A stretch of 64,000 bases of DNA, from the NCBI RefSeq assembly GCF_002224245.2, contig NZ_NKHK02000004.1, positions 62,001-126,000 on the forward strand. The letters run 5' to 3'. Both the position numbers and the translations under genes were made by a program. This document shows positions 4,550-32,195 of this stretch, in pieces. The stretch is from Moraxella sp. VT-16-12 (lineage in GTDB: Bacteria; Pseudomonadota; Gammaproteobacteria; Pseudomonadales; Moraxellaceae). The first letter of the stretch is position 1. The number at the start of each line of letters is the position of its first letter. The notes under the pieces were generated by a model, which ran no database searches, was not told where the DNA came from, and saw only the letters and a program-made list of their open reading frames with translations.

Positions 4550-4578
4550 ATTTTAGCCTTTGAAAAATTTTCTTGCAA
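4550..4578 (-). promoter_or_regulatory. Probable gatC operon promoter
   Basis: On the minus strand, TTGCAA (4578-4573), 17 bases, then TAAAAT (4555-4550), about 140 bases upstream of gatC. It lies in the 345-base divergent gap to mreB (4411-4755). The rest of that gap is AT-rich. On the plus strand it holds TATAAT at 4629-4634 without a well-spaced -35, and TTGACA copies at 4592 and 4688 without a good -10, so the mreB start point is unresolved. Confidence 0.45.
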
Positions 4579-4737
4579 AATCATGATTTTTTTGACAAAA
4601 CTTAATGATTTTTTGGACACAAATCAGGTATAATTTACCACCGTTTTTAACGTTTTTGGTCATGATGTTTTCATTTTATCCTAATTATTGACAAAATGCA
4701 GACAAAGTGATGACACATTTTATTTCTTTTTGTATGA

Positions 4738-5787
<1,050 letters not shown>

Positions 5788-5805
5788 TGATTACCACTTA
5801 ACCCA

Positions 5806-5836
5806 AAAATAGCGGTGTTCAACGCACCGCTTTTTG
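5806..5836 (+). terminator. Intrinsic terminator after mreB
   Basis: Stem AGCGGTG (5811-5817) and CACCGCT (5825-5831) with a 7-base loop, followed by TTTT and preceded by an A-run, so it may work in both directions. It would separate mreB from mreCD, allowing more MreB than MreC/MreD. Confidence 0.75.
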
Positions 5837-5891
5837 TGTCTTTTTATTGAGTGTGCTAGCATAGTACATCACATTTAGGTATTCTTGGCTT

Positions 5892-6752
5892 ATGTTGCCC
5901 AGTATTTTTTCTCAAAAGCCACTTTTTGCTCGCATGACCATCGGATTTTTGGTGGTGGCACTGATTTTGATGTTGCTTGATAGCAAAAATCCCCAGTGGT
6001 TTTCCCCTTTGCGTAGTGCCAGCCATGCTTCCATGCAGCCTATCTACCAAATAGCGGTAGGGCCATCTTATGCGATGACTTATGCCGAAGGTCAGCTTTA
6101 TACAAAAGAAGCCCTACGCCGTGAAAACATTCGCTTGCAAACTGAGCTGTTACAGGCTCGTGCCAAACTTCAAGTTCAAGACCATCTGATTGCCCAAAAC
6201 GCCCGTTTGCATGGCATTTTAACCACCACTTTATCTAATACCCACCATCTGCAATTAGCTCAGGTGATTGGCACTGACAGTAACCCATTAAAACAAGTGG
6301 TGATACTTAATAAAGGCAAAAATCATGGCGTGCAGATAGGTCAGACGGTGATTGATGAAAATGGCATTTTGGGTCAAATCATCAACACTTACCAAGACAC
6401 CAGCCGTCTTTTGCTCATCACAGATGAACAGCAGTCAGTGGCGGTGGTGGTGGCTCGTACAGGTCAGCGAGCGATGGTGTCAGGTGTTGGCATGCCTGAC
6501 AGTTTAAGTTTGGACTATATCTTTAAAACAGCCGATGTTAAAGTGGGCGATGAGCTGATTTCATCAGGGCTTGGTGAGCGTATTCCTGCTGGCTACAAAG
6601 TGGGCACAGTATCTGACATAGATACCACGCATACGGATAATTTTGCTGACATTAAAGTCAAGCCATCAGCAGATTTTTTGCGTAGTAATTATGTGTTGAT
6701 ATTGCAACCAAAAGAGTCATCAGTCGCCCAAGCCAAACATCAGCCATCATGA
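5892..6752 (+). CDS. mreC: Rod-shape determining protein MreC
   Basis: 286 residues. One membrane segment near the N-terminus (about residues 15-31, GFLVVALILMLLD) is followed by a coiled coil (about 65-100, ENIRLQTELLQARAKLQ) and the periplasmic beta-barrel domain with VIGTDSNPLKQVVILNKGKNHGV. MreC is the periplasmic scaffold that activates the PBP2-RodA synthase. The start at ATG 5892 has no strong ribosome site. The stop overlaps mreD by 4 bases (ATGA), indicating coupled translation. Confidence 0.95.
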   Translation: MLPSIFSQKPLFARMTIGFLVVALILMLLDSKNPQWFSPLRSASHASMQPIYQIAVGPSYAMTYAEGQLYTKEALRRENIRLQTELLQARAKLQVQDHLIAQNARLHGILTTTLSNTHHLQLAQVIGTDSNPLKQVVILNKGKNHGVQIGQTVIDENGILGQIINTYQDTSRLLLITDEQQSVAVVVARTGQRAMVSGVGMPDSLSLDYIFKTADVKVGDELISSGLGERIPAGYKVGTVSDIDTTHTDNFADIKVKPSADFLRSNYVLILQPKESSVAQAKHQPS

Positions 6753-7237
6753 AATCCAAAGTCTTTTTAATCACAGGCATGATAGCCAGTTTTGTGATAG
6801 CATCTGCCTTAAATGTTTATCCTTTAACACCCATGTTTGCCAGTATTCGCCCCATGTTTTTGGTGATGGTGCTGATTTTTTGGGTGATATATCGCTCTAC
6901 TTTATTGTCAGTATGGGCGGTGTTTTTGGTGGGCTTAGTCTCGGATTTGTTGTTTGGGACGCATTTGGGACATCAGGCGTTTTGTGCCACACTCATGGCA
7001 TTTATTCTAAGAGCCATGCTGATTTATGCCAAAGAGCTGACCTTGGTACAAGCATGGATAATTGCGGTGGTGGGATTGCTTGTGTACCAAGGCACATTGT
7101 GGTTTTTGCAAGCATTGGCACATCATAATTTTTTGTGGACGGGCATGGGGTCGCTCATCAGTAGTATGGCGTTATTTCCATTGTTGTGGTTGCCTTTATA
7201 TTGGATAAATAGCCAAGTCAAAGAGCGAGCCTACTGA
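6749..7237 (+). CDS. mreD: Rod-shape determining protein MreD
   Basis: 162-residue integral membrane protein with about five hydrophobic segments and the family motif FVGLVSDLLFGTHLG at mid-length. It belongs to the inner-membrane part of the elongasome with MreC and RodA. It overlaps mreC at its start and the maf start at its stop (TGATG), so mreC-mreD-maf form a tightly coupled unit. Confidence 0.93.
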   Translation: MKSKVFLITGMIASFVIASALNVYPLTPMFASIRPMFLVMVLIFWVIYRSTLLSVWAVFLVGLVSDLLFGTHLGHQAFCATLMAFILRAMLIYAKELTLVQAWIIAVVGLLVYQGTLWFLQALAHHNFLWTGMGSLISSMALFPLLWLPLYWINSQVKERAY

Positions 7238-7821
7238 TGAAAGTGATTCTTGCATCCACATCACCACGTCGTCAAGAACTGCTGGCACGGATTGTTGATG
7301 ATTTTACTGTTTGCCCTGCTGATATTGACGAAAGTGTTCAGCAAGATGAGTCTGCTCATAATTATGTCATGCGTATGGCAACCGATAAAGCACAGAAGAT
7401 TGCCCAAGCTTTTCACATCACAGATGGCGTGGTTATTGGGGCAGACACCATTGGGGTGCTTGATGATGATATTTTGACCAAACCCACCGACAAAGCTCAT
7501 GCCTTTGCGATGTGGGACAAGTTATCTCATCGCACACATCATATTTGGACAGCGGTATGTGTTGTGATGGTCAAAGATGGCAAAATTCATCACCAAAAAA
7601 CCATCAAAGTTAGTACAGACGTAACTTTTATTCAGCTGACTGACCATCAAAAACAGCAATATTGGCAAACAGGTGAGCCGACCGATAAAGCAGGGGCGTA
7701 TGCCATTCAAGGCGGAGCGATGGCGTGGGTGCGTGCGATTAATGGCAGTTATACCAACGTCATAGGATTGCCACTTGCTGAGATGGCTGAATTATTAGAC
7801 GAATGCTTGATGTTGTTTTAG
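7237..7821 (+). CDS. maf: Maf/YhdE-type nucleotide pyrophosphatase
   Basis: 194 residues of the Maf family, which hydrolyses dTTP, UTP and modified pyrimidine triphosphates to monophosphates (house-cleaning). Substrate-binding ASTSPRRQELL at the N-terminus, catalytic GADTIGV near residue 70, and the KAGAYAIQGG segment near 150 are diagnostic. Its position after mreD and before rng is the classic gammaproteobacterial order. Subgroup (YhdE rather than YceF) is inferred from that position. Confidence 0.93.
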   Translation: MKVILASTSPRRQELLARIVDDFTVCPADIDESVQQDESAHNYVMRMATDKAQKIAQAFHITDGVVIGADTIGVLDDDILTKPTDKAHAFAMWDKLSHRTHHIWTAVCVVMVKDGKIHHQKTIKVSTDVTFIQLTDHQKQQYWQTGEPTDKAGAYAIQGGAMAWVRAINGSYTNVIGLPLAEMAELLDECLMLF

Positions 7822-7828
7822 GTGTTGT

Positions 7829-9220
7829 ATGCCAAAACAGCTCATTGTCAGTCATATTTGTTACCCCCAAGTTGCCATACTTGATGATGGCAGACTTTGC
7901 CGATTGTTATCAGACAAGCCATCAGCACAAACAGGCGATATTTATCTAGCAAAAGTGGTGCGTCTTTTACCATCTTTAATGATGGCGTTTTTGGACATTG
8001 GCGAGCCAAAAAACGCTGTCTTGACACTCACCAAAGACAGCCAGATTCGTCAAGGTCAATACATCATGGTTATGATTGGTCGTCCTGCTTATGCTCAAAA
8101 AGGGGCAACTGCTACGACCGCCATCAGTTTATCATCGCCTTATGTGGTTTATAAACCTGATGATGTGGGGGTGCGTATCTCTCATAAAATCCCCAAAAAT
8201 ATTGCCCAGCACATCAAACACGCCATCACCGCCACGATGAAAGATGAGCATTTACAAGGCGGTATCATCATTCGCACATCTGCTCAAACCGTTGATATTG
8301 CCACAATTTTAGAGCATATCGGTAAACTATATCAAACAGGGCAACACATTAAAAACCATGCCCATAAAAAGCCTTGTCGCTTGTATCGTGTGCCATTGCC
8401 ATTGTCTGTATTTGTTCATGATGCAGACAGCAAAAAGATTGATGAGATTTTAATTGACGATAAGACATTGTATGACGAGTGGTGTGATTTTGTGGGGCAG
8501 TTTTTGCCACATCTGACGGATAAAATTAAATACCGCACGCCCAGCTTGTTTGATGGTCATGATATTTATGCACAGCTACGCCAAGCTTTATCACCCTATG
8601 TGCCTTTGCCGTCTGGGGCGACTTTGGTCATTGATGAATGTGAAGCGATGACGGTTGTTGATGTAAATACAGGTTCTTTGGTCAATTCATCAAAAAATCT
8701 GATATATCAGGCAAATTTAGAAGCCAGTCAAGCGATTGCTTTTGAGTTAAAATTAAGACAAATCGCTGGGTTGGTGGTGATTGATTTTATAGACATGAAA
8801 AATACGCAGCACCAACAAGCCGTCTATGATAACCTAAAAAAGCATTTGGCAGATGACCCCGCTAAAATTCGTTTATTACCCTTGAATGAGTTTGGATTGG
8901 TTCAGCTAAGCCGTGAACGCACTTCATTAAGATTGTCTGATATGTATGCTGAGCCTTGTTCTGCCTGTCAAGGTGATGGCATCACAACCCAAAAGGCAAG
9001 TGTACTGGCAATCATTGCACAATTGACCACTTTTACCCATCAACATTTATCTTCCAAAGATGAGATTGTGCTCAGGGTGTCCAATAATATTGCTAAAATA
9101 CTACTAAATAGTATGGATTTTGTAAAAATACAAACGGCATTACATGAGCAATTATCCCTAAAAATCATCAATACTTATTGTGATGATAAATATGATATTT
9201 TGTTTCATACAATCAAATAA
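7829..9220 (+). CDS. rng: Ribonuclease G
   Basis: 463 residues, slightly shorter than E. coli RNase G. It carries the S1-like N-terminal domain, the catalytic aspartates in VVDVNTGSLVNS and VIDFIDMKN, and the zinc-link CSAC motif late in the protein (EPCSACQGDGI). It processes the 5' end of 16S rRNA and cleaves 5'-monophosphorylated mRNAs. It lacks the long C-terminal scaffold of RNase E. Last gene of the mre cluster; its stop lies 13 bases before the S10 promoter. Confidence 0.94.
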   Translation: MPKQLIVSHICYPQVAILDDGRLCRLLSDKPSAQTGDIYLAKVVRLLPSLMMAFLDIGEPKNAVLTLTKDSQIRQGQYIMVMIGRPAYAQKGATATTAISLSSPYVVYKPDDVGVRISHKIPKNIAQHIKHAITATMKDEHLQGGIIIRTSAQTVDIATILEHIGKLYQTGQHIKNHAHKKPCRLYRVPLPLSVFVHDADSKKIDEILIDDKTLYDEWCDFVGQFLPHLTDKIKYRTPSLFDGHDIYAQLRQALSPYVPLPSGATLVIDECEAMTVVDVNTGSLVNSSKNLIYQANLEASQAIAFELKLRQIAGLVVIDFIDMKNTQHQQAVYDNLKKHLADDPAKIRLLPLNEFGLVQLSRERTSLRLSDMYAEPCSACQGDGITTQKASVLAIIAQLTTFTHQHLSSKDEIVLRVSNNIAKILLNSMDFVKIQTALHEQLSLKIINTYCDDKYDILFHTIK

Positions 9221-27156: not shown

Positions 27157-28053
27157 ATGATTACATTACGTCAATTAGAATTTGCCTTAGCGGTTGCCAA
27201 ACACAAACATTTTAAACGTGCTGCCGAAGAGTGTAACATTTCTCAATCTGCTCTCAGTTTGGGCATTGCAGAGCTTGAAAAACAGCTGGACACACAGATT
27301 TTTGAACGCAACAACAAACAAGTGCTGATTACGCCCATTGGCGAAGAGTTGTTGGAGCGGGCATTGCGTGTGTTTAGTGAGATTAATGACTTAACCACCC
27401 GAGCTCATAACCATCAAACGCCCCTAGCGTACCCCATGACCATTGGTATCATACCAACCGTTGCTCCTTATTTGCTTCCTAAGGTGTTGCCTGCATTGAC
27501 GCAGGCTTATCCTGATTTTGAGCTTTCGGTGGTGGAGCAACGTACTGAGCGACTGATTGAACAGGTGCGATATGGGCATATTGATACGGCGATTGTTGCA
27601 TTGCCATATCAAATAGATGGATTGCATACGTTTGAGTTTTGGGCGGAAGATTTTTTTGCGATTTTTCCCAAAAATGATGAATGTGGCAAACTTGAACATA
27701 TCAGCAGTAAAGAGCTGTCAAAGACGCATATGTTATTGCTTGGTGAAGGTCATTGTTTGACTGACCAAGTGCTGTCAGTATGTGCGATGAATAAAACGGA
27801 CATAAAGACGGGATTTTCAGATGCCAGTTTAAACACCATCATTCAGATGGCGATTGCTGGTATGGGAACAACTTTGGTACCAAAGATGGCACTTGACCAA
27901 ATCAGTTGTGGGCAAGTCAATGCCGTATCACTCAATGAGCCAGGACCTCACAGACGATTGGCGTTTATTACACGTCTTAATTATGCTCGCGTTAATGATG
28001 TTAAAATATTAAGTGAAGTTTTTCATAATGCTCTTAATTGTCAGGTGAGCTGA
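27157..28053 (+). CDS. oxyR: Hydrogen-peroxide sensing regulator OxyR
   Basis: 298-residue LysR-type regulator. The N-terminal winged helix (RQLEFALAVAKHKHFKRAAEE) is followed by an effector domain holding both redox cysteines at the E. coli positions within one residue: Cys200 (GEGHCLTDQ) and Cys209 (SVCAMN). It should form the activating disulfide under peroxide. Divergent from ahpC, its usual target. Followed by a strong terminator. Confidence 0.96.
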   Translation: MITLRQLEFALAVAKHKHFKRAAEECNISQSALSLGIAELEKQLDTQIFERNNKQVLITPIGEELLERALRVFSEINDLTTRAHNHQTPLAYPMTIGIIPTVAPYLLPKVLPALTQAYPDFELSVVEQRTERLIEQVRYGHIDTAIVALPYQIDGLHTFEFWAEDFFAIFPKNDECGKLEHISSKELSKTHMLLLGEGHCLTDQVLSVCAMNKTDIKTGFSDASLNTIIQMAIAGMGTTLVPKMALDQISCGQVNAVSLNEPGPHRRLAFITRLNYARVNDVKILSEVFHNALNCQVS

Positions 28054-28087
28054 TAATACTCGTTATCATTTGTAACAGTTGTCATGT

Positions 28088-28136
28088 CAGTCTGTAACTA
28101 TCTATTTTGTATAGGTATTTACAGGCTGATTTTTTT
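28088..28136 (+). terminator. Terminator after oxyR
   Basis: Ten-pair stem CAGTCTGTAA (28088-28097) with TTACAGGCTG (28119-28128), one G-U pair, and an inner CTAT/ATAG pairing. Then seven T (28130-28136). It insulates the accessory operon from oxyR transcription. Confidence 0.85.
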
Positions 28137-28203
28137 ATGTCGTTGTGTGCGGTTTTAGTGGTTTTTGATTGAGAGATGTCTAAATTTTTGTTTTGTTAAA
28201 TGT

Positions 28204-28222
28204 TGCGACATAATGTGTCGCA
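28204..28222 (+). promoter_or_regulatory. Palindromic operator candidate
   Basis: TGCGACA (28204-28210), TAATG, TGTCGCA (28216-28222): an exact 7-5-7 inverted repeat 70-80 bases before the HTH-regulator gene. GC-rich arms stand out in AT-rich surroundings, and no T-run follows, so a protein-binding site is more likely than a terminator. The natural candidate binder is the product of the next gene. A -10-like TATTAT lies at 28259-28264 without a well-spaced -35. Confidence 0.55.
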
Positions 28223-28291
28223 CAAATCTTGCTCTTATATTGCTTTTTGAAATAAATGTATTATCCTTTACATACAAAATAAATCAATGTT

Positions 28292-28978
28292 ATGAGAGCC
28301 ATTATGAGCCAAACCAAGAATAATCAAATCATACGTCAATGGCATATTATTCAATATTTGTTGGTGGCAGATGGTTATGTATCTAGTGATAATGTCTTGG
28401 CATATATTCAAGATTTGGGTATTTCTGTAACAGATAGAACCATACAAAGGGATTTGGTGTTGTTGTCAGAGATTTTTCCGATTGAGTGTCGTAAAGATGA
28501 CAAACCTTATAGCTGGCGATGGGAGCGTCTGCCAAATACCAAAAAAAGCCAGCTAAATTATAGGCAAGCGGCTGTTTTGACCTTGGTTAATAATGAGTTA
28601 AAGGATTGTATCCCAGAGGGTTTGTTTAAGCGGTTGATGCCTTTGTTTATTAAGGCAAAATTGACCTTGATTGACCTTGATTGTGAGCAAGTAGCATCTT
28701 TGCGTAATGAGTTAGAGTTGCCCAAAGTGAAAAAACCACATGACACACCGTTTGGTTTTATAGATGTCAAACCATCATCAATTTATCAGTTAAAGCAGTA
28801 TTTAGCAGGTTTTGCCAAGCTCAATCCATTTGCCAAAGATAATGGTGAACATTGGCAAAATGTGGTTAAACAACAAGACATCAAAGACTTGCAAGAGATT
28901 TTAACCAGTCAGGGTCATGTGCAGATGGCTGAGATATTAAGTGGGCTTGATAAGAAATTGAAAAAATCAAGAAAGTAA
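28292..28978 (+). CDS. HTH regulator of the YafY/DeoR-like type, without WYL
   Basis: 228 residues. The N-terminal about 75 residues form a winged helix of the kind that heads WYL-domain regulators (RQWHIIQYLL... VTDRTIQRDLVLLSEIFPIE...YSWRW). The rest is helical and charged. I do not see the WYL motif or fold, so the ligand-binding part is different or lost. Either ATG 28292 or ATG 28304 may be the start; GAGAG precedes the second. First gene of the accessory block, 70 bases after the palindrome, hence probably an autoregulator. WYL-type relatives often control defence genes; applying that here is inference. Confidence 0.7.
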   Translation: MRAIMSQTKNNQIIRQWHIIQYLLVADGYVSSDNVLAYIQDLGISVTDRTIQRDLVLLSEIFPIECRKDDKPYSWRWERLPNTKKSQLNYRQAAVLTLVNNELKDCIPEGLFKRLMPLFIKAKLTLIDLDCEQVASLRNELELPKVKKPHDTPFGFIDVKPSSIYQLKQYLAGFAKLNPFAKDNGEHWQNVVKQQDIKDLQEILTSQGHVQMAEILSGLDKKLKKSRK

Positions 28979-29023
28979 TTATCCAAAATTGGTACATTTT
29001 AACTGGCTAAAAGAGGTGAAAAA

Positions 29024-29215
29024 ATGGGTTTATTTCGTGAAGTCTTTGGATTTGTCAAAGATTTAAAAGAAGATAGTGACTTTTACAAAGATTTGTATGC
29101 TGATTATGATGATGAAGAGTTGCGTGAGGAGCTAAAAAAATGTGAGTTTGTAGATGTAGCCAAAAAAATGGCGATTCGCAGTTTGTTAAATCAAAGAGGT
29201 TATAGTGATTCATAA
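29024..29215 (+). CDS. Small acidic helical protein
   Basis: 63 residues with a good ribosome site (GAGGTG, 8 bases before ATG). It is mostly predicted helix with a run of acidic and aromatic residues (DLKEDSDFYKDLYADYDDEEL). No membrane segment or signal. Family not recognised. It lies 45 bases after the HTH gene and 97 bases before the glycine-rich membrane protein, so it probably belongs to the same operon; a TTGTCA/TATTAT pair with 15-base spacing (29248-29274) might start a further transcript. Confidence 0.65.
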   Translation: MGLFREVFGFVKDLKEDSDFYKDLYADYDDEELREELKKCEFVDVAKKMAIRSLLNQRGYSDS

Positions 29216-29312
29216 CAAGTCATAACTTTTGTAAGCTTATCATTGCTTTGTCATGACTGAAAATATCTTATTATAGTTGTACATCAATCATCATTTGTTT
29301 AGGAGTAAGAAT

Positions 29313-30239
29313 ATGGCTATTCCAGTATTATTATGGGGTGCAGCAGCTGCACTTGGAGCAACAGGTGTTGTCAAAGGTGTTGAGGCGATTGGTTTGCAGT
29401 CTCGAGCCAAAGAAATTGGCGAACAAGCAGAAAGTAAGTATAGACGCAATAAGCGTTTGTTGAATGATGTGCGTGATGATACAAATGATAAATTTGAATC
29501 ATTAGGTCGTTTAAAGATAGAAATTTTTAATAATCAAATCAATCATGTGGTTCAGGTATTAAAACAACAAAAAAGCACCAGTAGTTCTATCAAAAACTTT
29601 AATAGTATGTTTACGATTGAAGAATTAAGACAGATGGAAACGATGGTGCAAAAATCCTTAGAATTAGAGTCTGGATTATTGCAAGGTGCAGCGGTTGGTG
29701 TGCTAGCAGGTCTTGGAGCTTATGGTTCAGTGCCATTATTTGCTGCTGCATCAACTGGTACAGCAATCCCTGCTTTATCGGGTGCCGCTGCTACTAATGC
29801 TACTTTGGCTTGGTTGGGCGGAGGTTCACTTGCAGCAGGTGGTTTTGGTATGGCAGGTGGTATGATGGCATTGGGTGGCATTGTTGCAGGTCCTGCTTTG
29901 GCAGTTGGTGGGTTTTTTCTGGCTGGCAAAGCTGAGGAGGCTCTTACTGAGGCACGAGCATATGAGGCTAGGGTTGATGAGGCAGTAATGCAGTTTGACC
30001 TAATGGCTGATACGTTACTTGCTCTGCAAGAAAACGCCAACGAGATTTCAACAACCTTAGAAATGCTGGTAGATAGGTTTGAACAAGTTAAGGTTGATAG
30101 CATTAACGACGGCAATATTGCAAAAATGTTAACAGTTGGAAAAGCCATTAAAGCAATTTTGGACTATCAAATCATGGAGGAAGATGGCTCAGCAGTACAA
30201 GGTGTTCGGCACTATTGCTCAGGCTACTTAGAAATTTAA
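29313..30239 (+). CDS. Glycine-rich membrane protein, unknown function
   Basis: 308 residues from ATG 29313 with AGGAG 7 bases upstream; an upstream extension to 29277 has no ribosome site. A hydrophobic N-terminus (IPVLLWGAAAALGATGVV) is followed by a charged coiled-coil-like region (about 25-115). A long Gly/Ala-rich hydrophobic stretch (about 120-205) has glycine-zipper features (GAAVGVLAGLGAYGS, GGSLAAGGFGMAGG, GGIVAGPALAVGGFF). A helical C-terminal half follows. This layout fits a membrane-inserting or pore-like protein but no named family is certain. I recall similar unnamed proteins in diverse bacteria. It is the largest product of the accessory block; a partner of about 139 residues follows 61 bases later. 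Confidence 0.75.
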   Translation: MAIPVLLWGAAAALGATGVVKGVEAIGLQSRAKEIGEQAESKYRRNKRLLNDVRDDTNDKFESLGRLKIEIFNNQINHVVQVLKQQKSTSSSIKNFNSMFTIEELRQMETMVQKSLELESGLLQGAAVGVLAGLGAYGSVPLFAAASTGTAIPALSGAAATNATLAWLGGGSLAAGGFGMAGGMMALGGIVAGPALAVGGFFLAGKAEEALTEARAYEARVDEAVMQFDLMADTLLALQENANEISTTLEMLVDRFEQVKVDSINDGNIAKMLTVGKAIKAILDYQIMEEDGSAVQGVRHYCSGYLEI

Positions 30240-30300
30240 TCAAGCTTTGGTGGTGTTACCTGTACCGAGAGTAGCGCCACCAACAATTTAGGAGAAAATT

Positions 30301-30720
30301 ATGACACAAGCAACACTGATAAAGGCGACAAATGTGACTAAATTACCCATGATGACTTCAAACTCAGCATTGAGTGCATTTGAGATGTTGGTAAATAGTC
30401 ATAAAGAATACAAAATGATTGCAGAACGGGAGCTTACAAAAAGAGAAATGATAAAAACGTGGAAAGAAACACGTTTGGCTCAAATTCAAGCACAGCAAGA
30501 AATTTTGAGAGATTATCTTAAATACACATTTGCTGAGAGAAAAACAGCCATTGATGGTTTTTTTGAAGTGTTGGATAAGGGATTTGAGAGTAATAATTTG
30601 GAGATGATAAATATGGCAATTGGTGGTATTGTCGGCATTGTCAAAACATCGCCATTGCAACAAGTGGAGTCTTTGATGCTTTGTTTGAATGATGATGGAG
30701 TAAAGCATATTGAGTTTTAA
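30301..30720 (+). CDS. Helical partner protein, unknown function
   Basis: 139 residues with a strong ribosome site (AGGAGAA, 5 bases before ATG). Residues 25-100 form amphipathic helices rich in Lys, Glu and Gln (HKEYKMIAERELTKREMIK, RLAQIQAQQEILRDYLKY), then a short hydrophobic segment (MAIGGIVGIVKTSPL). Soluble and coiled-coil-like. Family not recognised. Its end overlaps the TTG start of the Cys-rich gene. Position suggests it works with the glycine-rich membrane protein. Confidence 0.72.
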   Translation: MTQATLIKATNVTKLPMMTSNSALSAFEMLVNSHKEYKMIAERELTKREMIKTWKETRLAQIQAQQEILRDYLKYTFAERKTAIDGFFEVLDKGFESNNLEMINMAIGGIVGIVKTSPLQQVESLMLCLNDDGVKHIEF

Positions 30721-30988
30721 TATCAACAATTCTTTTCCTTGCAATGCTTGTGGGCAGTGTTGTCGATATGTAGATAAAAGCACACAGACTGCTTATCTTA
30801 GTCGTGGTGATGGTGTGTGTCGTCATTTAGATGAGCAAAGTAATTTGTGTATGATTTATGAACACCGCCCTTTGGTTTGTCAGGTTGAAAAATACTATCA
30901 AGTTTATTTAAAGGAACACTTATCTTGGCAAGATTTTGTTGAGAGAAATGTTCAGATATGTCAAAAACTGCAACAAGCCAGTTATTAA
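30710..30988 (+). CDS. YkgJ-like Cys-cluster miniprotein (TTG start)
   Basis: 92 residues. FPCNACGQCCRY followed by GVCRHLDEQSNLCMIYEHRP and VCQ gives the eight-Cys pattern of YkgJ/UPF0153 proteins, thought to bind zinc or iron. No ATG lies before the motif. TTG 30710 has GGAG with 9-base spacing and overlaps the previous stop by 11 bases, making it the best start. The role in the accessory block is unknown; metal binding or Fe-S-type redox sensing are possibilities from the family name only. Confidence 0.75.
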   Translation: MSFNINNSFPCNACGQCCRYVDKSTQTAYLSRGDGVCRHLDEQSNLCMIYEHRPLVCQVEKYYQVYLKEHLSWQDFVERNVQICQKLQQASY

Positions 30989-31025
30989 TGGTTGGTTGTG
31001 GATTAATGTTAATTTGGAGTGATTT

Positions 31026-31463
31026 ATGGAACATCCTTTTTTGCTGGAATTATACAGAGAGTTTGGCGAGTTTTTTGAAGATGCTCGTTCGGACAAAAAA
31101 GTTATTTTCAAAGAAAATTGCGATAATAAAGCTTATGATAAACTATATAAAGCTATGAATGGACATTCTGATTATGGTGCTTTTTGTGGCGATATGTGTA
31201 GTATCTTAATTGCGTTTGATGCCACAGTATTTGGCAGTTTTAGTGATGGTGTTTATATTTGCCGAGAAGGTGTGTATGTAAAAGGTTTATTTCAAGAGGT
31301 TGAAATATACTATTATGATGATTTACGCACTTTTGAGGTTGATGAACGTGAAAAAAGAATATGCGTCAATTATGGTGATGATGTATTGATTGCTAATGCT
31401 TATGCGATATCAGTTGCCAAAAGGGTTGAATACGCCTTTAATAGATACAAAAAGAATCGTTGA
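31026..31463 (+). CDS. Protein of unknown function, possible PH-like fold
   Basis: 145 residues, with a TTGGAGTGA ribosome site before ATG 31026. No signal peptide. The N-terminal half is helical; the second half alternates beta strands (FGSFSDGVYICREGVYVKG... VEIYYYDDLRTFEVDE) in a way that recalls bacterial PH-like domains. This is a weak impression. Last gene of the accessory operon, ending 28 bases before a strong terminator. Low GC like its neighbours. Confidence 0.7.
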   Translation: MEHPFLLELYREFGEFFEDARSDKKVIFKENCDNKAYDKLYKAMNGHSDYGAFCGDMCSILIAFDATVFGSFSDGVYICREGVYVKGLFQEVEIYYYDDLRTFEVDEREKRICVNYGDDVLIANAYAISVAKRVEYAFNRYKKNR

Positions 31464-31490
31464 GATGATTGTGGCAGTACATCAAGAATA

Positions 31491-31522
31491 AAAAAACAGG
31501 CAAATCAAATTGCCTGTTTTTT
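31491..31522. terminator. Bidirectional terminator
   Basis: AAAAAACAGGCAA (31491-31503) with TTGCCTGTTTTTT (31510-31522), 13 exact pairs, 6-base loop, A-run and T-run on either side. It closes both the accessory operon and the convergent OmpA-like gene. Confidence 0.93.
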
Positions 31523-31538
31523 TGTTGTAAAACTTACA

Positions 31539-32195
31539 TTAGTTTACGCTTTGTGGGGCTAAAATGGTCAACTCCACACGGCGGTTAGGCTCATAACTGC
31601 CACCAAATTGAGTGGTTGCACCGTGTCCATAAGCACTGATACGGCTTTGGCTAACGCCTTGGGCAACTAAATACTGTGCCACGGCATTTGCACGGTTTTG
31701 TGATAGGATTTGGTTGGCGTGGGCATTGCCTTCAATAGAAGCATAGCCATTGACCACAACTTGAGTTTGGTGGTATTGGCTTAGTGTGCTGGCAACTTGA
31801 TTTAACGCACCAAACGAGTGGGGTTTGATGTTGTATCTGCCCACATCAAAGGTGATGGCTTCTGGAATGGCTAGGTTGATGTTGTTGGTAACAGGGTCTC
31901 GGGTAACTTCAATGCCTGTACCTGCGGTTTGTTGTTTTAGTTGGGCTTCTTGACGGCTCATATAAGCACCCACACCCGCTCCGATGGCAGCACCGATGGC
32001 AGCATCACGCCCTGTTTTTTCTCCGCCTGTTGCCTTAGAAATGCCTGCACCAAGCACCGCACCTGCCAATGTGCCTAAGCCGACTTTGGTGGCAGTACTG
32101 CTGTTGCTACCTGCGTTTTGGGTAGAAGCACAGCCTGTGATAACAAGGCTAGATGCGATGGCACCAACTGCCAATATGCTTTTTGCGTTTTTCAT
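31539..32195 (-). CDS. OmpA-family lipoprotein (YiaD-like)
   Basis: 218 residues. Lipoprotein signal with lipobox VITGC (Cys22); a glycine-zipper segment (about 40-80, GLGTLAGAVLGAGIS, GAAIGAGVGAYMS); C-terminal OmpA peptidoglycan-binding domain (about 110-215) with VNGYASIEGNAHANQILSQ and RVELTI. The anchor Asp/Arg pattern is partly visible (NQILSQNRANAV). It probably tethers the outer membrane to murein. The upstream gap 32196-32488 (about 290 bases) holds no gene; it is AT-rich and separates two divergent genes. Confidence 0.88.
   Translation of the reverse strand: MKNAKSILAVGAIASSLVITGCASTQNAGSNSSTATKVGLGTLAGAVLGAGISKATGGEKTGRDAAIGAAIGAGVGAYMSRQEAQLKQQTAGTGIEVTRDPVTNNINLAIPEAITFDVGRYNIKPHSFGALNQVASTLSQYHQTQVVVNGYASIEGNAHANQILSQNRANAVAQYLVAQGVSQSRISAYGHGATTQFGGSYEPNRRVELTILAPQSVN

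Follow-up and report, generated by a model that had tools for sequence, protein, structure and literature searches.

What is the function of a compact operon of six genes lying between a LysR-type gene and a gene for an OmpA-family lipoprotein (both assigned by Pfam) in Moraxella sp. VT-16-12? The window, a stretch of 64,000 nucleotides (contig NZ_NKHK02000004.1, positions 62,001 to 126,000), belongs to a genome of 2.15 Mb in 60 contigs, here called G000. On its plus strand, positions 28292-31463 hold six co-oriented open reading frames (ORFs), hereafter genes A to F, with stop-to-start gaps of 45 (A-B), 97 (B-C), 61 (C-D), -11 (D-E) and 37 bp (E-F). As stated in a first-pass annotation of the same DNA, the block stands between two strong terminators (folding z-scores of -6.3 and -7.0) and is AT-rich, its genes having a GC content of 32-42% vs. 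42.6% for the whole window. Our interpretation, to which we give a probability of roughly 0.55, is that this cassette is a horizontally acquired operon of the phage-defence type, which would act as a C-D membrane system under the control of A. Its core, namely a membrane system of the defence type together with a partner protein, finds good support in context.

Protein C matched the PDC-M09A model of PADLOC (5.3e-30 and 4.6e-22). PDC-M09 (PDC-M09A plus PDC-M09B) is a class of phage-defence candidates in PADLOC-DB 2.0, so that the family of C, part of what the first-pass annotation had put forward as an undescribed system, was already listed there. A literature search returned no published account of PDC-M09, and searches on YkgJ, Bunzi, Leo, glycine zippers and abortive infection, and LRAT or HNH in defence islands returned no description of the C family. 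An alignment of C was seeded with nine relatives and followed by a scan of a genome collection, from which 91 loci were obtained: the best 80 of 384 confirmed genome-contig relatives and 11 earlier loci, all selected via C. These relatives span many phyla (Neisseria, Campylobacter, Peptococcaceae, Brevibacillus, Nostoc, Bacteroidales and Spirochaetales, among others), and their distribution is patchy, with C present in 8 of the 22 genomes of the genus, 35 of 299 of the family and 9 of 299 of the phylum. At 84 of the 91 loci a partner gene lies at most 3 kb from C (30 of the short D type, 3 of mid length, 44 long and 7 HNH-type), and several of the seven loci without a partner are degraded or truncated by a contig end. 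The D profile was found in 13 of 299 Moraxellaceae genomes, with C adjoining on the same strand in all 13 (17-359 bp by match coordinates), a count that is not independent of the previous one since the two sets share loci (G083/L028, G246/L022, G277/L029). Concerning the counterpart of E, a YkgJ gene was found upstream or downstream of C at 57 of the 91 loci and is absent from 34, some of which have ample flanks. The pairing of C and D suspected by the first-pass annotation is thus borne out: as detected by homology, C and D are found as a pair in different phyla, and in most cases a YkgJ protein accompanies them.

D has neither a hydrophobic segment (hydropathy) nor a front domain, and gave no match in PADLOC at E <= 1. 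A profile built from short D proteins only recognised the C-termini of 21 of the 44 long partners (domain E < 1e-3) and of two of the three mid-length ones, the related part being the last ~110 residues of the long partners. In hhalign, D was compared once with each kind of C-terminus, giving 6e-10 for the PDC-M09B type, 3e-9 for the LRAT type and 8e-5 for the BnzB type, vs. 0.11, 0.13 and 0.87 for the C family, the WYL regulators and the HNH-type partners used as controls. Since iterated profiles drifted, merging D with the long partners and A with the WYL regulators, the relation of D was based on the non-iterated search and on these controls. By homology, D corresponds to the C-terminal domain of larger partners, here encoded as a protein by itself. 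The front domains of the latter vary: LRAT was found in one mid-length partner (Pfam, 1.3e-16), Peptidase_M48 in one long BnzB-like partner (2.1e-15), and most front parts have no domain known to Pfam. Three of the long partners scanned matched PDC-M09B strongly or clearly (up to 1.3e-188), and in two cases the partner is BnzB itself (4.6e-125 and 1e-116). The HNH-type partner was also considered as a long form of D and was ruled out by its hhalign value, although a protein of L074 had matched both iterated profiles. If the long partners carry an effector to the membrane, the window copy, whose D has no front domain, would have to act via C-D itself, E or F.

Protein C has hydrophobic stretches at residues 2-20, 118-146 and 173-203, the region 118-203 being predicted to form a membrane hairpin. 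Its Gly/Ala/Thr core is almost invariant, with helical stretches on either side, in the alignment of nine relatives as well as in later ones. Such a layout fits, but does not prove, a helix-hairpin-helix pore protein; the pore nature of C is a prediction, as profile searches returned no relative in the PDB. Other weak Pfam or NCBIfam matches of C and D (DUF2120, clathrin light chain) were below cut-off, as is usual for helical or Gly-rich sequences, and were rejected.

Compared with PDC-M09, the cassette shares C as PDC-M09A with a directly adjoining partner, and the long partners of its relatives match PDC-M09B; it differs in that it has no full-length PDC-M09B, D equalling the C-terminal domain only, and in that a YkgJ protein, F, B and an A-type regulator are extra. 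As for Bunzi (BnzA plus BnzB), reportedly a defence system tested against phage, the cassette shares the BnzA N-terminal domain in F and the distant relation of D to the BnzB C-terminus (8e-5), but has neither a full BnzA nor a full BnzB; the TerB part is missing, and no BnzB match was found among the six cassette proteins at E <= 1 in PADLOC. Three clostridial loci (L051, L083, L090) have an operon with the gene order BnzB-like, ~250-amino-acid (aa) protein (TerB-like by eye) and C. A table of PMC10952713 gives Millman et al. 2022 as the reference for Bunzi. With PDC-M40, the likeness is that C and YkgJ flank, at the place of D, a ~545-aa HNH-like partner that matches PDC-M40B (1.2e-30); this partner is absent from the window and has no detectable homology to D. 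Its HNH reading was made by eye from the motif LDH..E.H..N..N..K, seen in 8 of 8 sequences, and Pfam returned no HNH match for it. The dynamin-like Eleos/Leo systems and IetAS, of which Eleos and IetAS protect against phage, share A-type regulators and the same upstream palindrome with the cassette in Moraxellaceae, but the window encodes neither of their effectors (GTPase, AAA ATPase). As for two-component alpha-pore-forming toxins, the hydropathy of C fits the long helices and membrane-inserting hydrophobic hairpin of their fold, with no weighty match in the PDB profile search. In a Selenomonadaceae metagenome-assembled genome (L049, 9983-16009), C, a pair of large ORFs judged GTPase-like by eye, and BnzB stand in a row, which may connect Bunzi with dynamin-like systems.

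Regulator A was described in the first-pass annotation as a helix-turn-helix (HTH) protein lacking WYL, and this description stands: weak HTH matches were found in Pfam, with no WYL match at E <= 1, and the PADLOC WYL model covers residues 12-69 only. Residues 3-128 share ~30% identity with WYL-size regulators of the family, in which WYL-type regulators occur in some form in 259 of 299 genomes; among the 91 C stretches, 19 carry a gene for one. Close relatives of A (E < 1e-28) were found in 12 genomes including G000. Contexts were viewed for 8 of the other 11 and scanned with PADLOC for 7; directly behind the A-like regulator, five of the seven scanned loci have Leo-like genes, several of these matches covering a short GTP-binding stretch only, and two have IetA-like genes.

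Position 28204, from which the first-pass annotation had begun the system, is not a gene start: it is the first base of a palindrome upstream of A, which is a candidate operator of that regulator. This is the only exact TGCGWC-N7-GWCGCA in the G000 assembly. Within 200 bp upstream of each of the 12 close relatives, the pattern is best matched at -78 to -97, with no mismatch in five, one in two, two in one and three in four, vs. 0 exact, 4 one-mismatch, 50 two-mismatch and 539 three-mismatch sites in 4000 random 200-bp stretches. Among eight WYL-size regulators less closely related to A, the number of mismatches was 4 to 6, and the exact palindrome was present at one of 22 WYL genes of C loci (L080). 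In L154 (G003), exact palindromes are found at 715-733, before an A-like gene, and at 1314-1332, inside the 3' part of that gene and before a Leo-like gene; in L158 (G163, 4575-6174), a 228-aa gene is faced by an A-like regulator. Passages of PMC9122601, PMC9122589 and PMC9122588 describe a ~20-bp upstream palindrome for BrxR and CapW. A resembles these regulators in its N-terminal winged-HTH region and in the palindrome of similar size upstream of its gene, but has no WYL domain, so that the ligand switch described for them cannot be the same.

Concerning the accessory proteins, the assignment of E as an eight-cysteine YkgJ-like protein holds, with PF03692 above its cut-off and each of the eight cysteines kept in 56 to 58 of 58 aligned sequences; the gene starts with TTG and overlaps D by 11 bp. 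F is, as far as profile matches tell, a lone BnzA N-terminal domain, covering positions 24-113 only of the 544 of the model in a weak match (9.2e-6). When the BnzA model was run against the own genome, F was the sole match (1.2e-4, positions 39-114). The closest relatives of F, from Acinetobacter, gave 3e-12 to 1e-15 over this part of BnzA and have N-termini alignable with F. F is rare: it was found in 5 of 299 genomes of the family, G000 among them, with no more than partial matches in the remaining four. Three Acinetobacter proteins of 356-397 aa (L105, L106, L107) combine a BnzA N-terminal domain with TerB and J-domain parts recognised by eye. Single-sequence PDB searches with F, A and E gave no convincing match. 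For B, a search of the 9908 small ORFs in the fetched loci gave no relative; an 84-aa ORF of L165, suspected by eye, was not supported by it.

Table 1. Features of the six-gene cassette and of its borders in the window.
Feature	Position	Strand	Basis or remark
Intrinsic terminator, left border, closing the LysR gene side	28086..28130	+	-22.6 kcal/mol, z -6.3, 0/200 shuffles as stable; T run after
Palindrome TGCGACATAATGTGTCGCA, candidate operator of A	28204..28222	.	19 bp, 7-bp arms, 88 bp upstream of A
A, 228-aa regulator with N-terminal winged-HTH-like region of WYL-family regulators	28292..28978	+	no WYL domain
B, 63-aa acidic protein	29024..29215	+	no relative found; sub-threshold Pfam matches only
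C, 308-aa Gly/Ala-rich membrane protein, PDC-M09A family	29313..30239	+	PADLOC PDC-M09A 5.3e-30; alignments of relatives
C residues 2-20, N-terminal hydrophobic stretch	29316..29372	+	hydropathy
C residues 118-203, two hydrophobic segments around conserved AASTGTAI..GAAATNATLAWLGGGSLAAGG core	29664..29921	+	hydropathy, invariant columns
D, 139-aa soluble helical partner	30301..30720	+	free-standing C-terminal domain of PDC-M09B/LRAT-type/BnzB partners, by homology
E, 92-aa YkgJ/CxxCxxCC cysteine-cluster protein	30710..30988	+	PF03692, 33.2 bits vs. cut-off 23
F, 145-aa protein with Bunzi BnzA N-terminal domain	31026..31463	+	BnzA 9.2e-6 over F 30-117
Intrinsic terminator, right border, bidirectional	31488..31525	.	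-18.6 kcal/mol, z -7.0, 0/200 shuffles as stable

As a general terminator scan of the 7-kb region gave 10 sites vs. 5.9 expected, the terminators are claimed from their folding against shuffles and not from that scan. The distance between the LysR and OmpA-lipoprotein genes, 3485 bp in the window, is 52 bp in G018, the relative with the closest LysR protein (88%), 68 bp in G008 and ~95 bp in G017, i.e. the insert is absent from three of the five same-genus genomes in which the site was assessed. In the other two, G005 and G011, the gap is filled by an unrelated 222-aa gene (L151, 3432-4100, and L167, 3890-4558, respectively). The gap being empty or differently filled in relatives, the cassette is an insert at a small variable spot. 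No long flanking direct repeats were found around it, the longest being only 9 bp; no RNA family was found in 27900-31700. The OmpA lipoprotein (31539-32195, minus strand) has a Gly-zipper match in Pfam too; it is not counted with the cassette, since it occurs without it in relatives.

Elsewhere, C was found in 6 of 72,556 plasmid records, one copy adjoining a phosphorothioation methyltransferase and another type I restriction genes, and some copies of C adjoin toxin-antitoxin genes. A search for plasmid DNA near-identical to the cassette gave nothing. Some loci are broken or compound. In L015 (G012, 7309-8990), an insertion with a transposase-like 217-aa ORF splits C, with D and YkgJ intact downstream. 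L018 (G004, 5462-8068) is decayed, its HNH-type partner being in several ORFs and an in-frame stop lying within the C match. In L165 (G206:C7, 3637-11227), cassettes stand in tandem, in the order WYL regulator, C, 104-aa ORF, long D-type partner, 84-aa ORF, second C, HNH-type partner and YkgJ.

The gene kinds near C plainly differ from those of control stretches. For this comparison, 110 of 189 eligible proteins from 20 Moraxellaceae C loci (window excluded) were set against 110 of 207 from 19 control stretches (two short). The neighbours of C include type I methyltransferases, a type II enzyme, IIG enzymes, PglX and BrxC. At 1e-10, 243 PADLOC models were matched by C neighbours vs. 33 by controls, the latter mostly through one helicase; redundancy among models inflates these counts, and WYL regulators of the cassette itself make up four of the neighbour matches. 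This inflation is the first of several points that weigh against a defence operon of the kind proposed. The first-pass annotation suggested a look for defence islands, and restriction and BREX genes do occur near Moraxellaceae C loci, but the window copy stands isolated amid ordinary genes, outside any such island. The match of C to PDC-M09A is not independent proof, as that class was itself named from similar context evidence. C was found in none of 50,697 phage records, and viral contigs gave two partial matches only. The best PDB profile matches of C (E ~0.002) were coiled helical proteins, none related; no related solved structure was found for D, and among the weak matches of C and D the one to the NheB pore-toxin model was very weak and below cut-off (E 0.016). 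As to the operator, the pattern was relaxed once the upstream regions of the relatives had been seen, and the three-mismatch sites draw their weight from position alone. Within the window the motif is unremarkable, 26 of 100 shuffles matching with at most one mismatch; 13 genomes together contain 17 exact sites, of which 7 belong to A-like loci and 10 to other places, and the reversed pattern, used as a control, gave 7.

It is quite possible, though we do not favour it, that only C-D-E forms the system and that A, B and F come from other, older acquisitions stacked at the same site. The six genes had been taken as one system in the first-pass annotation, and as a conserved unit they could not be upheld: A, B and F had no match in the C loci of the first 11 relatives, and the part that recurs across loci is C-D-E only. 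Its worry that the genes might never occur together elsewhere is contradicted for C-D-E and came true for B and F. In G018, moreover, relatives of A and F stand together and adjoin an IetA-like fragment without C, and in G144 a dynamin-like protein behind an A-type regulator carries an F-like domain at its end (2.5e-6; alignment). Set against this are the common orientation and close spacing of the six genes within one terminator pair, and the links of both A-like regulators and the BnzA N-terminal domain to defence elsewhere, because of which A and F may be adopted parts rather than debris. An addiction module of the toxin-antitoxin kind, in which C or C-D would be the toxin, E, F or B the antitoxin, and retention of mobile DNA the role, with defence a by-product or absent, would account for a compact operon with small accessory proteins, for the plasmid copies, for those next to toxin-antitoxin genes and for the broken ones in G012 and G004. 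We nevertheless consider it distinctly unlikely, as no small antitoxin candidate is constant (E is missing from 34 of the 91 loci, and B and F are not shared) and the WYL-type regulator genes at 19 of the 91 stretches fit defence operons better. In a passage of PMC9122601, such regulators are presented as more typical of defence operons.

That C-D maintains or remodels the membrane in an envelope- or metal-stress module, YkgJ sensing metal or redox state and the defence context reflecting shared accessory islands, is unlikely too. YkgJ is a general family (PF03692) for which no literature titles linking it to phage defence were found, and the cassette adjoins the LysR gene and, by eye, a peroxiredoxin gene; but that LysR gene occurs in relatives without the cassette, and the patchy spread, the plasmid copies, the interchangeable toxin-like front domains and the defence-rich surroundings would be unusual for housekeeping genes. 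The exchange of enzyme-like N-terminal domains on a constant C-terminal domain also recalls an interbacterial or secreted toxin module in the style of polymorphic toxins, not directed at the cell itself. This we hold to be very improbable: the constant domain is C-terminal, the reverse of the usual polymorphic-toxin layout, and no signal peptide, secretion or immunity genes were noticed beside C, although no dedicated search was run.

A defence operon acting through C-D is the interpretation we retain; the idea in the first-pass annotation of a phage response, or of a pore and a protein controlling it, is still the leading one. From gene content, homology, pairing, conservation of the upstream site and context, we infer the following course. 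A, a repressor of the BrxR/CapW kind having lost its WYL domain, would occupy the palindrome at 28204 and keep the operon low, until infection lifts repression or triggers the proteins. D would dock on the membrane protein C. In relatives, docking would carry an effector (LRAT, M48 peptidase, unknown domains or the unrelated HNH-type partner) to the membrane, while in the window the C-D complex without effector would disturb or permeabilise the inner membrane, phage production being stopped and the cell sacrificed. E, with a metal or redox cysteine cluster, and F, with its BnzA N-terminal domain, may tune or sense. Judged from context, a function in defence is somewhat probable and its mode is probably abortive; permeabilisation of the membrane as the means is put forward tentatively.

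A broader reading, which we regard as doubtful when all its parts are taken jointly, would unite PDC-M09, part of Bunzi and the LRAT- or M48-armed forms in one membrane-docked defence superfamily, plus a shared repressor subfamily. C would be the common platform and the D domain the plug delivering interchangeable effectors; the form found in the window would be free of effector, platform and plug alone acting on the membrane. A WYL-less repressor subfamily with one operator would control several unrelated Moraxellaceae defence systems as well as the cassette. While the family of C was already known as a defence candidate in PADLOC, what is new is that the D docking domain appears related to partners of the PDC-M09B, LRAT and BnzB kinds, that the form in the window is free of effector, and that a regulator without WYL shares its upstream site with relatives; a link of the C-D family to Bunzi did not turn up in the literature searches. 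An anonymous candidate class would thereby become a testable modular system in which the membrane platform and the docking domain are constant and the effectors can be swapped; the minimal two-protein core in the window is small enough for a direct test of membrane action. The regulator subfamily, with its recognisable upstream site, may in turn flag further defence operons in Moraxellaceae.

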